A stretch of 12,418 nt of DNA from an uncultured Collinsella sp. (GTDB taxonomy: Bacteria > Actinomycetota > Coriobacteriia > Coriobacteriales > Coriobacteriaceae). The notes beneath the pieces are model-generated. The model did no database searches. It saw nothing but the letters and a program-made list of their open reading frames with translations, and was not told the DNA's origin. The DNA lies in contig CAJJZO010000038.1 of the NCBI GenBank assembly GCA_905197585.1, positions 1-12,418 on the forward strand, written 5' to 3'. Below are positions 4,110 to 12,418 of the stretch, piece by piece (positions within the stretch are counted from its first letter, which is position 1; every line of letters starts with the position of its first letter). A program made the translations under genes and the position numbers.

Positions 4110-5360
4110 TTAAATACGCTGTTTGGGCTCGGTGACGATGGCTCGGACGATGCGGGGACGATCGGTGAGGTCGTGGACGATGCGCACGTCCGAGAGACCA
4201 GCCTGGCGGCAGAGCTCGGCGGCGACGTCGAGGGCACCCTCGTAGAGCTCGCAGGCAAACAGGCCGCCGGCGCGCAGCATATAGGGCGCCGCGTTGAGCA
4301 GGCGGCGGAAGATATCAAGGCCATCGGCACCGCCCTCGAGCGCCAAATCGGGCTCGAAGTCCTTGACCTCGTGCGGCAGCGAGCGCATGACGTCGGTCGG
4401 AATGTAAGGCGGGTTGGAGACGAGCACGTCGAAGGTGCCCCATTCCTCGCGGGGGATAGAGCTCACCAGGTTGGTGAGGCTGAAGGCAACCTCATCTGCC
4501 GTGAGACCGAGGGCATCGCGGTTTTTGGTGGCCAGATCGATGGCGCGCGACTCGATATCGGTGGCGGTGCAGGTGACGTGACCGCGGCGCTCCCAGGCAA
4601 GGGAGAGCGAGATGCAGCCCGTGCCGCAGCCGACCTCGAGAATGCGGGCAGTGCGGGGCTCGGCTGGGGCAGGCGCAGCGGCATCCTGAGCTGAAGCCGT
4701 CTCCTGGTCGGCGCCCTCGATGGCGATGCCGTATTCGTCGAGCTCGGGTTCGGCGGCTTCCGCGGCTTCGGCTTCTGCTATCTGCGTGGCGGCTTCCTCG
4801 GCCTCGCGGTCGGCCAGTTCCTCGGCATAGGCACGGCTGCCCAGTACGTCGCCACCCAGCGCAGCCTCATCGGCAGCCGTGAGGTTAGCGGCACGGCGCT
4901 CGGCCGTCGCTCGCTCGTCGGCCAATGCGGCTTCGACTTTGCGCGCTTGCTCGACCTCGTCGTTCCAGGGCAGCTCAACGCGCTGACGGGCGGCAGCCTC
5001 GGGGCTCAGCACCTCGGCATCCAGATAATTGAGGACTTCCTCGACGAGCATCTCGGTCTCGGGACGCGGAATGAGTACGCCGGGGGCGCACGCGACGTCG
5101 ATCATGCGGAACTGCGTGCTGCCGGTGATGTACTGCAGCGGCTCGCCCTTGGCGCGGCGGACGACCGCCGCGTGCATGGTCTCGAGCTGCGCCGCATCGA
5201 GCGTCTCGTCCATACGCATATATAAGTCGATGCGCGCCAGACCCGTGGCAGCGCAGAGCAGCCACTCGGCAGAAAGTCGGGGGTGTTCCTCGCCGCGCTC
5301 GGCCAGGTACTCCTTGGTCCACTCGAGACAACGCTTGATGGTCCAGATCTCGTTTGCCAT
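4110..5360 (-). CDS. prmC: Release factor glutamine methyltransferase PrmC with internal acidic insertion, 416 aa
   Basis: SAM-dependent N5-glutamine methyltransferase (HemK/PrmC) that modifies the GGQ glutamine of RF1 and RF2. Order: N-terminal helical substrate domain (1-95) with RRAKGEPLQYITG (68-80); IPRPETE (97-103); a long insertion; SAM motif ILEVGCGTGCISLSLA (240-255); catalytic NPPY (316-319) in VSNPPYIPTDV; then HEVKDFEPDLALEGGADGL (330-348). Homologues are about 280 residues; here about 120 extra residues (roughly 112-237) lie between IPRPETE and the SAM motif, rich in Ala and Glu and likely helical or disordered. The start at 5358-5360 is preferred because MANEIW begins the family-like region and GGGGAGGA lies close upstream; an in-frame ATG 25 codons earlier adds an unrelated Arg-rich leader across the predicted promoter. 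prfA is the next gene upstream, across a 598-bp gap. The reading frame is intact and catalytic motifs are present, so activity is likely. Confidence 0.93.
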   Translation of the reverse strand: MANEIWTIKRCLEWTKEYLAERGEEHPRLSAEWLLCAATGLARIDLYMRMDETLDAAQLETMHAAVVRRAKGEPLQYITGSTQFRMIDVACAPGVLIPRPETEMLVEEVLNYLDAEVLSPEAAARQRVELPWNDEVEQARKVEAALADERATAERRAANLTAADEAALGGDVLGSRAYAEELADREAEEAATQIAEAEAAEAAEPELDEYGIAIEGADQETASAQDAAAPAPAEPRTARILEVGCGTGCISLSLAWERRGHVTCTATDIESRAIDLATKNRDALGLTADEVAFSLTNLVSSIPREEWGTFDVLVSNPPYIPTDVMRSLPHEVKDFEPDLALEGGADGLDIFRRLLNAAPYMLRAGGLFACELYEGALDVAAELCRQAGLSDVRIVHDLTDRPRIVRAIVTEPKQRI

Positions 5361-5408
5361 GGGGTCCTCCCCTCTTAAGCGCCGGGCGGCGCGCGAATGT
5401 CGGAGCAG

Positions 5409-5435
5409 ATTGTACGCGAGACCAGCGCTTGGCAA
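5409..5435 (-). promoter_or_regulatory. prmC: Candidate prmC promoter
   Basis: On the minus strand TTGCCA (5435-5430) and TACAAT (5414-5409) each match 5 of 6 sigma-70 consensus bases; spacing is 15 bp, shorter than ideal. Transcription would begin about 40 nt before the prmC start codon. This would give prmC its own promoter, consistent with the large gap to prfA. Confidence 0.45.
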
Positions 5436-5597: not shown

Positions 5598-5753
5598 CGC
5601 GACGCATCAAAAATCATCCCGCGACTTCTTGGACGATTATTCGAGCAATATTTTCAATAGCAGATGAATACCGCTAATTGCTTTAAGCAGGTAAGCAGCT
5701 CAAAGGCCATCAAAACCGATTGAATAACATCTCAAAGCAATGTACCCAACCTA

Positions 5754-5778
5754 GTCATTTAAGAACGTCCCCAATGAC
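5754..5778. repeat. REP-like hairpin, copy 1
   Basis: GTCATT (5754-5759) and AATGAC (5773-5778) form a 6-bp stem around the 13-nt loop TAAGAACGTCCCC. Bases 5751-5780 match 7261-7290 at 25 of 30 positions. One stem pair is A-T here and G-C in the other copy, a compensatory change that supports the hairpin. This looks like an interspersed palindromic element, not a gene-specific site. Confidence 0.65.
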
Positions 5779-5816
5779 CACCTCTAAGGCGCCGCAGGTT
5801 GAGCATAAGTCAGCGA

Positions 5817-5914
5817 AAACGCCCCTAAGCGAGCAAGGTGACGTGAAAGAGGAGGGAAGCGTACTTCGGTACGCGACCGACGATTGAACGTCAGATTGCC
5901 GCTTAGGGGCGTTT
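5817..5914 (+). ncRNA. Candidate structured RNA: 98-nt rod with tandem G.A motifs and UUCG cap
   Basis: Nested arms: 5817-5831 with 5900-5914 (15 bp, perfect), 5833-5836 with 5896-5899, 5839-5844 with 5888-5893, and 5859-5864 with 5869-5874 closing a UUCG tetraloop between C and G. The 14 x 13 'internal loop' (5845-5858 / 5875-5887) aligns in register as four GA/GA tandem mismatches separated by one or two Watson-Crick pairs: 5845-5846 with 5886-5887, 5849-5850 with 5882-5883, 5852-5853 with 5879-5880, 5856-5857 with 5875-5876. Tandem sheared G.A pairs are stable only as plus-strand RNA; the complement would carry U.C mismatches. The element lies in the prfA-prmC gap, opposite to gene direction. 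No plus-strand promoter was recognised. On the minus strand the outer stem is followed by GGGGCGTTTTCG, so it could also act as a prfA terminator. Confidence 0.5.
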
Positions 5915-5927
5915 GCAGCGTCGAGCC

Positions 5928-5955
5928 GTTACGCGGTTTGGTAAAACCGCGTAAC
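5928..5955 (-). terminator. 12-bp perfect hairpin directly after prfA
   Basis: GTTACGCGGTTT (5928-5939) and AAACCGCGTAAC (5944-5955) form a perfect stem with a 4-nt loop, beginning 3 nt past the prfA stop. There is no T run after it on the minus strand. It may act with the 5817-5914 stem (followed by TTTT) as a tandem terminator, or stabilise the prfA message. Confidence 0.55.
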
Positions 5956-5958
5956 CCA

Positions 5959-7026
5959 CTACACGGCCTGTGCCAGCTTCTCGGCTCGCTCGGCGGCGGC
6001 GAGCGCCTCGATCACGGTGCCGAGCTGGTCGCCCAGAAGAACGCCGTTGTAGGTGGAGTTGAAGCCGATGCGGTGATCGGTCACGCGGTCCTGGGGCTGG
6101 TTGTAGGTACGGATCTTCTCGGAACGGTTACCGTGGCCGATCTGGCTTTGGCGCTCGGCACCAAGCTCTGCCTGCTGCTTCTCGAGCTCCATCTCGTACA
6201 GACGGGCGCGCAGCATCTGCATGCAGACCTCGCGGTTCTGGATCTGGGAGCGCTGCTCCTGCGACTGCACCACGGTGTTGGTGGGCAGGTGGGTGATACG
6301 CACGGCGGAGTAGGTGGTGTTAACGCACTGACCGCCAGGGCCCGAAGCGCAGTAAGTATCGATGCGCAGGTCGGACTGGTTGATCTGGACGTCAATCTCC
6401 TCGGCCTCGGGAAGCACGGCGACGGTTGCCGTGGAGGTCTGGATGCGGCCCTGGGACTCGGTCTTGGGAACGCGCTGGACACGGTGCACGCCGGACTCGA
6501 ACTTCATGACGGAGTAGACGCGGTCACCCTCGACCTTGAACTCGATGGACTTAAAGCCGCCGGCCTCGCTGGGACTGGAATCGAGCACGGTGGTCTTCCA
6601 GCCGCGAGACTCGCAAAAGCGCTGGTACATCTTGTACAGGTCGCCGGCGAAGATGGCTGCCTCGTCGCCACCGGCGGCGGAGCGGATCTCGACGATGGTG
6701 TTCTTGTCGTCGTTGGGGTCGCTCGGGATGAGCATGTACTTGATATCTTCCTCGAGCTGGGGAAGCTTAGCCTCGTTTTCGGAGATGTCCATCTGGAGCA
6801 TCTCCTTCTCATCGGCGTCGGTGGTATCGTGGAGCATTTCCTTGGCAGCCTCGATGTCGTCGAGCGCGCCGATGTACTCGCGCGAGGCAGCAATGAGGTC
6901 GGACTGGTGCGCGTACTCCTTGTTGAGACGCGTGAACTCCTTGATGTCGGAGGCGACGGCCGGGTCGGACAGCTTCTTCTCGAGCTCCTCGTAGGCCTTG
7001 ATGATCTTTTCGAGCTTGTCGCGCAT
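5959..7026 (-). CDS. prfA: Peptide chain release factor 1 (RF1), 355 aa
   Basis: Class I release factor that recognises UAA and UAG in the ribosomal A site and triggers peptidyl-tRNA hydrolysis. An N-terminal coiled-coil domain (1-95) precedes the codon-recognition domain with the P-x-T tripeptide as PKT (187-189) in RVPKTESQGRIQTS, which marks RF1 and not RF2 (SPF). The catalytic GGQ is at 231-233 in SGPGGQCVNTT; the residue after GGQ is Cys where many RF1s have His. Gln233 is the PrmC target. C-terminal signatures GHGNRSEKIRTYNQPQDRVTDHRI (297-320) are intact, and length is normal (about 355-360). The start at 7024-7026 has AAAGGAG 7 nt upstream. The partner prmC lies downstream on the same strand. 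Many stop codons in this window are TAG or TAA, which RF1 reads. Confidence 0.98.
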   Translation of the reverse strand: MRDKLEKIIKAYEELEKKLSDPAVASDIKEFTRLNKEYAHQSDLIAASREYIGALDDIEAAKEMLHDTTDADEKEMLQMDISENEAKLPQLEEDIKYMLIPSDPNDDKNTIVEIRSAAGGDEAAIFAGDLYKMYQRFCESRGWKTTVLDSSPSEAGGFKSIEFKVEGDRVYSVMKFESGVHRVQRVPKTESQGRIQTSTATVAVLPEAEEIDVQINQSDLRIDTYCASGPGGQCVNTTYSAVRITHLPTNTVVQSQEQRSQIQNREVCMQMLRARLYEMELEKQQAELGAERQSQIGHGNRSEKIRTYNQPQDRVTDHRIGFNSTYNGVLLGDQLGTVIEALAAAERAEKLAQAV

Positions 7027-11852: not shown

Positions 11853-11943
11853 CGTCCAGAGCGAACAAGTGGCATGAAAAAGGCAAGGCATGACCAGAAG
11901 GTCTATGCCTTGCCTTTTGAATGACAAATTATCGCTCTGGACG
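11853..11943. repeat. 91-bp imperfect palindrome enclosing the epimerase terminator
   Basis: CGTCCAGAGCGA (11853-11864) and TCGCTCTGGACG (11932-11943) are perfect 12-bp inverted copies. They are in register with the terminator stem inside (11878-11891 with 11905-11918). The 13 x 13 bases between the stems also align: six Watson-Crick pairs and several G.A mismatches in plus-strand RNA, including a GA/GA tandem at 11876-11877 with 11919-11920. The whole forms one rod, similar in size to that at 5817-5914. Confidence 0.6.
11878..11918 (-). terminator. Strong intrinsic terminator of the aldose epimerase gene, probably bidirectional
   Basis: AAAAGGCAAGGCAT (11878-11891) and its exact complement (11905-11918) give a 14-bp stem, topped by GACC/GGTC and an AGAA loop. 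On the minus strand the stem ends in TTTTT. It lies 55 nt past the epimerase stop and insulates the transporter operon. The A run on the other side would allow termination from the plus strand too. Confidence 0.85.
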
Positions 11944-11973: not shown

Positions 11974-12418
11974 CTAGAGCAAGGTAACGCTAAAGGTACG
12001 CTTGTCGGTGGCGCCGGGAGCCAAGGTGATGGTGTTGACCTTGTGCTCAAAGATGTCGTCCTCGGTGTCCATGGTGGTGTGACCGGTCCAGGGCTCGAGC
12101 GCCACAAACGGAGCGTCGTTGGCGGCAGACCACACGCCGATGTACTTAAAGCCCTCAAAGTCGATCTTGACGCCGTGGCCCGACTTGCGGCCGCGCAGCG
12201 TGAGCGTGGAGCCCGGGGTATCGGTGAACATGATGGCGTCGTTATCGAAGCTGCGGTGCGTGATGGGCAGCACGTCCGAGTTATCGGGAGCCTTGTAGCT
12301 ACCCTCGAACGTCATAAGGCCATCGGGCGTGATGACAGGGGCCTCGTTAGTCCAAGCCTCGGTAAACGCCAACTCGTAATCCTCGAACGCCTCGTCCTCG
12401 GCGCCGGGGGCGGGCACG
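11974..12418 (-). CDS. Aldose 1-epimerase, LacX-like (partial; N terminus beyond the window)
   Basis: C-terminal part, about 148 residues, of a galactose-mutarotase-superfamily protein that interconverts alpha and beta anomers of aldoses. Characteristic blocks: PITHRSFDNDAIMFTD (about 96-111 residues before the C terminus), TLTLRGRKSGHGVKIDFEGFKYIGVWS (segment from 12205 down to about 12125), and PFVALEPWTGHTTM with the probable catalytic Glu of the EPW motif coded at 12094-12096. Full LacX-type proteins are about 290-300 residues, so roughly half is present. The frame is open to the window edge; the GTG at 12415-12417 is an internal Val codon, not a start, since VP...G..FEDYEL is mid-protein in the family. 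It ends in TAG and is followed by a strong terminator, so it is the last gene of its own transcript. Confidence 0.9.
   Translation of the reverse strand, partial: VPAPGAEDEAFEDYELAFTEAWTNEAPVITPDGLMTFEGSYKAPDNSDVLPITHRSFDNDAIMFTDTPGSTLTLRGRKSGHGVKIDFEGFKYIGVWSAANDAPFVALEPWTGHTTMDTEDDIFEHKVNTITLAPGATDKRTFSVTLL

Follow-up and report, generated by a model that had tools for sequence, protein, structure and literature searches.

Integron attC sites are positioned behind the stop codon of their cassettes, hairpins behind stop codons are typical of transcription terminators, and some IS elements target REPs. REPs themselves are 20-40 bp long and are found chiefly behind coding regions, and in many cases the TAG that ends a flanking ORF is provided by a GTAG REP (PMC3733652); REPs are tied to RAYT transposases (PMC2817692), and one Collinsella RNA is mentioned upstream of L7/L12 (PMC8040213).

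The window, by which we mean the whole stretch of 12,418 nucleotides that was analysed, comes from an uncultured Collinsella sp. and on sequence grounds belongs to the Collinsella aerofaciens group; its prmC is 91-97% identical, in the best segment, to the first 19 loci found with it. Between prmC and prfA lies a rod-like hairpin (the rod, 5817-5914) which is real and is one copy of a dispersed family; the family is likewise real and is not matched to any described family. Membership of Collinsella-1, which the earlier note had raised, or of another Rfam RNA was rejected, since no family reached the Rfam gathering threshold in the window or in 20 other loci with copies. At E<=5 there was no Rfam match for 5700-6000, and at E<=1 four copy-bearing loci returned one sub-threshold gntR-DTE match (23.9 bits), away from the rod in L361, a locus that is also one of the 20. 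The rods resemble Rfam families in being structured and covarying. A phage origin was rejected as well, there being no rod match in the phage collection, and the only "plasmids" record with rod matches, the 900-kb C. aerofaciens "plasmid 6" NZ_OY725717.1, carries rpoC and a ribosomal protein operon and so looks like a piece of a chromosome. Among titles and the beginnings of abstracts, with few subscription journals covered and PMC8040213 represented by passages of its text, no description of the rod family was found, and the main text of PMC3733652 contains none of the terms Collinsella, Coriobacteri- and Actinobacteria.

The rod and its surroundings

The features of the window are as follows.

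4110..5435, minus strand: prmC, release factor glutamine methyltransferase (TIGR03534, 225 bits, over cut-off), the next gene downstream of prfA
5790..5815, plus strand: left flank box of subtype A, GCCGCAGGTTGAGCATAAGTCAGCG, which by eye recurs beside many subtype A copies
5817..5914, GA-bearing strand plus: the rod, a long imperfect hairpin (predicted fold, comparison of copies)
5835..5897, plus strand: conserved core (63 positions of model R1, 88.5 bits)
5845..5887, plus strand: segment bounded by the near-universal GA/GA tandem (5845-5846 with 5886-5887), enclosing further GA tandems and the apical stem-loop
5928..5955, no strand assigned: second hairpin, GTTACGCGGTTT..AAACCGCGTAAC, seen by eye between the rod and the prfA stop codon
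5959..7026, minus strand: prfA, peptide chain release factor 1 (TIGR00019, 478.5 bits, over cut-off), stop codon at 5959-5961
11867..11930, plus strand: second, weaker core copy (25.3 bits, E 1.6e-4)

In RNA folding the plus strand of 5790-5940 has a predicted MFE of -78.2 kcal/mol against a shuffled mean of -48.6 (z -8.0; 0/200 shuffles as stable), and this fold contains both the nested stems and the opposed GA pairs that had been described from the letters alone; the minus strand of the same segment folds less well (-64.6, z -6.9). Alignment A1, of 36 cores, places opposed GA/GA tandems of the window rod at 5845-5846/5886-5887, 5849-5850/5882-5883, and 5852-5853/5879-5880, with GG/GA below them at 5837-5838/5894-5895, GAA/GA above them at 5856-5858/5875-5876, and a TTCG apical loop at 5865-5868. 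The UUCG cap proposed in the earlier note is thus a property of the window copy, but not of the family, other copies carrying TTTG, TTTT, TTCT, or GGAT.

By eye, the second hairpin occurs in variant forms beside many subtype A copies and varies separately from the rod. The weaker copy at 11867-11930 has a left box too, and it likewise stands just behind a minus-strand gene (11974-12417), its end lying close to the TAG that terminates this gene. A different repeat, with GGGGAC/GTCCCC cores, lies beside class A rods in the window (5752-5781), in the L007 prfA-prmC gap, and in L307, L308, L311, and L313.

A dispersed family with a conserved fold

With the rod as BLAST query, each of 8 C. aerofaciens-group genomes returned 28-43 matches and three other genomes 1, 1, and 2 weak ones; one further matching locus lay outside these genomes. 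A covariance model built from the alignment of 36 distinct cores found 47 matches at E<=1 and 46 at E<=0.01 in Collinsella genome G006, where all counts by position use the 46 and leave out one weak match (E 0.46); 43 of these lie outside called genes and 3 inside one (simple gene caller), so that the copies are mainly intergenic and numerous, as in REP/BIME. The same model has matches in 39 of 43 genomes of the genus (E<=0.01; 30-48 matches each in 23 of the 43), in 53 of 65 genomes of the family (E<=0.001), and in 83 of 296 genomes of the class (E<=1e-7 with strict filters, in a sample drawn evenly from a larger group); 39 of these 83 were not among the returns of the family search, and sequence was read from one of them (G268, copy L375). 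Tandem arrays of two or three rods in a single orientation occur in other genomes (L378, L379, L354, L371).

The rod structure is under selection. Among the 36 aligned cores, 93.7% of pair cells are standard, compared with 75.3% after shuffling and at most 40.4% when the partner is slid; 13 of 18 pairs are altered on both sides, with 102 such cells vs 37.3 shuffled. The 38 distinct rows from further genomes, whose alignment was fitted to the covariance model and hence leans towards it, have 85.0% standard pairs vs 63.3% shuffled, and 17 of their 18 pairs are altered on both sides (125 cells vs 39.3). Many intergenic copies with GA retained and stems covarying, the support that the earlier note had named for its candidate, were therefore obtained. 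The GA ladder fared less evenly: the lowest GA/GA tandem is present in 91 of 102 distinct cores, but the full ladder is not kept across the family, the next tandem being strictly GA/GA in 32 of 102 (by a simple register) and several A subtypes having a plain Watson-Crick stem in place of the upper ladder. In class A, the window type, the lower loop reads AGGU 5′ and AGAU 3′, and the left box and often the second hairpin are present; class B may have AGAU or AGGU on either side, and 26 of 31 distinct class B copies have GTG in both arms, which by pattern gives tandem U.G/G.U pairs. One G006 copy (C3:53153) is without loops and nearly fully paired, and nested remains of elements occur.

The conserved G.A pairs, and with them the G.U pairs, are possible on the plus strand only, as the earlier note had argued for G.A. 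Under RNA and DNA parameters alike, 126 of 128 copies have a GA strand more stable than its complement, in which the oppositions are U.C and A.C. Isolated wobbles are mixed as an indicator of strand and are not decisive: on the GA strand of 33 copies from further genomes (the 38 less five more copies), G.T outnumbers A.C 28 to 9 (p 0.003); core pairs of the further-genome copies include 10 G.U vs 20 A.C (p 0.10); and in the C. aerofaciens group a raw 56 vs 24 for G.T and A.C becomes 26 vs 22 after like contexts are collapsed. Taken together, the conserved G.A and G.U pairs and the greater stability suggest that selection acts on the fold of the plus (GA) strand, which may form as single-stranded DNA.

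Position behind genes and turnover between strains

Most rods stand behind a stop codon of a gene on the opposite strand to GA. In the annotated record NZ_OY725717.1 this holds for 15 of 16 strong copies (three weak matches, E 0.001 to 0.9, left out), 20-63 nt from the core, the exception lying between two genes on the GA strand. In G006, as read by a simple gene caller, 38 of 46 copies have an opposite-strand stop codon at most 75 nt from the core, 4 have the reverse arrangement (L139, L152, L156, L164), and 4 have neither (L138, L166, L174, L180); the bias of 38 vs 4 (p 6e-8) contradicts the suggestion that the element inserts in either orientation. In further genomes the figure is 30 of 38 copies (at most 75 nt), the 38 being 41 matches less two repeats of L354 and one weak match (L371), and not independent, since they include close relatives such as L346/L358/L359, L347/L348, L360/L366, and L351/L374; of the other eight, four are in same-orientation tandem arrays and four are exceptions (L352, L362, L363, L375). 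A minority of copies are in sense orientation before a start codon (L352, L362; L152, L164). That orientation is set by replication and not by the gene was considered and rejected: two NZ_OY725717.1 copies are reversed along with their genes, so that there the gene decides. On the evidence of annotation and gene calls, the placement favours the complement as the transcribed form.

Genes with a rod at their 3′ end include prfA, and rpoC, tyrS, cysS, lysS, proB, hisF, and queA in the NZ_OY725717.1 annotation; in other genomes they include fabG, gyrB, cysS, asnS, pheS, and metG, recognised from protein tails that score below full-length cut-offs. Among subtype A copies behind opposite-strand stops, 19 of 24 have the stop codon 57-61 nt from the core. 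REPs carry an unpaired GTAG or CGTC tag at one end; in subtype A, TAG often precedes the element and CGTC lies at the distal end of the GA strand, but the TAG is at the same time the stop codon. The stop is TAG in 18 of 24 A copies (p 0.04) and 26 of 38 A and B copies (p 0.09), compared with 54 of 106 background stops.

Comparison of related strains reveals differences at the same gene ends. Of 20 sequences, 16 could be read across the prfA-prmC gap, and all 16 have a family member there, of three subtypes (5, 5, and 6), with the second hairpin varying separately from the rod. For 13 of the 16 NZ_OY725717.1 slots a copy lies behind the same gene in G006, and the subtype differs between the two at the SDR, queA, tyrS, and hexokinase slots (at least 4 of the 13). 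Specifically, i) the infA-map gap, aligned in 21 of 22 loci, has a rod in 6, none in 11, and another short insert in 4, and the 8 bases TTACATTT are found at both rod edges (L185 differs by one base) and once in the empty site; ii) the lacB slot, readable in 23 of 29, has a rod in 5, deletion derivatives in 4, none in 12, and different sequence in 2; iii) the L182 slot (n=22) has 7 rods of two subtypes and 15 sites without one; iv) the L171 slot (n=22) has 9 rods and 13 rod-less sites which retain one arm and may be deletion scars; and v) the M20 slot (n=22) has class A in 3, class B in 4, an A relic in 1, B deletions in 2, and other sequence in 12, most of which have a different hairpin and one half of the second hairpin. 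Because one arm is kept at some "empty" sites (L171, M20), gain and loss are not polarised. A target-templated outer stem, with the left arm an inverted copy of the target, was suggested by the L171 and L182 slots and is possible, but was dropped as a claim because the M20 deletion scars keep one arm. In L213-L217, at the lacB slot, the element is longer, with up to about 130 additional bases left of the rod, and a peptide-coding reading of this long left part was dropped because by eye its lengths shift frame between strains.

Possible roles and known systems

In overall character the rod resembles a dispersed palindromic repeat more closely than a free-standing RNA gene. We hold with moderate confidence that the rods are dispersed extragenic palindromes found across the class Coriobacteriia, working like REP/BIME, exchangeable as cassettes, and transcribed as a 3′ stem-loop. 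New or exchanged copies would result from movement at the DNA level or from recombination of one copy with another; the GA strand, which is the template strand of the adjacent gene, would be the folded form recognised by a putative protein; and what would keep copies in place is the very stable stem-loop that the complement, once transcribed, makes behind the stop codon, and which might bound or stabilise the upstream mRNA or separate it from the next gene. Rod slots are common to different species at the fabG, cysS, gyrB, and asnS ends with differing sequence, and this speaks for a host function and against the REP-like reading.

Such shared slots, and the fixed place behind stop codons, would also be expected if the rod acted only as the mRNA-sense (UC) strand, forming in the 3′ UTR or between cistrons a stem-loop that serves mRNA stability or processing, and if it spread through recombination without being a mobile element. 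The rpoC and cysS examples point the same way, since by eye a terminator-like hairpin follows the rod, which would place it inside the 3′ UTR. We nevertheless consider this account unlikely, because the complement, with its U.C and A.C oppositions, is the less stable strand in 126/128 copies, and conserving exactly those oppositions would require a separate reason.

We give a rather small chance to the proposal that the rods are folded single-stranded template-strand DNA sites at which a putative recombinase or transposase swaps gene 3′ ends, as in an attC-like bottom-strand system whose cassettes are 3′ UTR hairpins read via tandem G.A/G.U pairs. Folded single-stranded template DNA would reconcile placement with GA-strand conservation; differences from attC are given below. 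It is similarly improbable that the plus (GA) strand itself is a structured non-coding or leader RNA, even though the conserved GA/GA and UG/GU pairs form on that strand only, the stems covary, and the few sense-oriented copies before start codons (L352, L362, L152, L164) would suit a leader. In 38/46, 15/16, and 30/38 copies the GA strand runs antisense to the gene it adjoins, which also weighs against the stand-alone plus-strand RNA of the earlier note; in 10 of the 46 G006 copies there is scant space for a promoter, the next co-directional gene beginning less than 150 nt away on the rod's other side; and by eye there is no shared flank left of subtype B copies. That the rod is an intrinsic transcription terminator with a decorated stem is very improbable, since the ending of the window copy in CGTTTTCGCT after the stem on the minus strand is set against the fact that, by eye, no T-run follows the stem in copies of subtype B or in GC-rich ones of subtype A, the separate terminator-like hairpin seen by eye after some copies, and a conserved core that a terminator would not be expected to have.

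The family would be a structured repeat that spans the class, is absent from Rfam and marks the ends of housekeeping genes (several aminoacyl-tRNA synthetases, fabG, gyrB, rpoC, prfA) in bacteria common in the human gut. Given cassette exchange among strains and a fold biased towards the template strand, the acting strand and the mover become directly testable questions.

As to a mover, Y1/RAYT-type genes gave 34 matches in 18 chosen genomes, being present in 14 of the 18, and tend to co-occur with rods (13 of 14 chosen genomes with rods vs 1 of 4 without); a RAYT was nonetheless rejected as mover, because a covariance-model scan of 12 loci with Y1/RAYT-type genes, of the 34 matches, found no rod. 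In 4 of these 12 a different repeat, GGGGAC, similar to the one beside class A rods, flanks the gene on both sides. IS110-family transposase genes directly adjoin rods in L132 (tyrS slot, annotated) and, by eye, in L138/L062.

The rods resemble integron attC sites in being hairpins of conserved structure behind a stop codon whose relevant fold would be that of the bottom (template) strand; they differ in that here the hairpin is exchanged while the housekeeping genes stay, and in that the conserved part lies in the middle instead of at the ends, which were compared by eye. REP/BIME elements, the GTAG-/CGTC-tagged palindromes, are the closest known kind. The rods differ from these in length (about 98 bp vs 20-40 bp; PMC3733652), in their conserved G.A and G.U pairs, in one prevailing orientation to the gene, and in the 12 scanned Y1/RAYT loci, which are without an adjoining rod; like them, the rods are imperfect palindromes scattered outside genes, chiefly behind coding sequences; many are plausibly transcribed, and they form mosaics with other hairpins and may abut a TAG stop codon.
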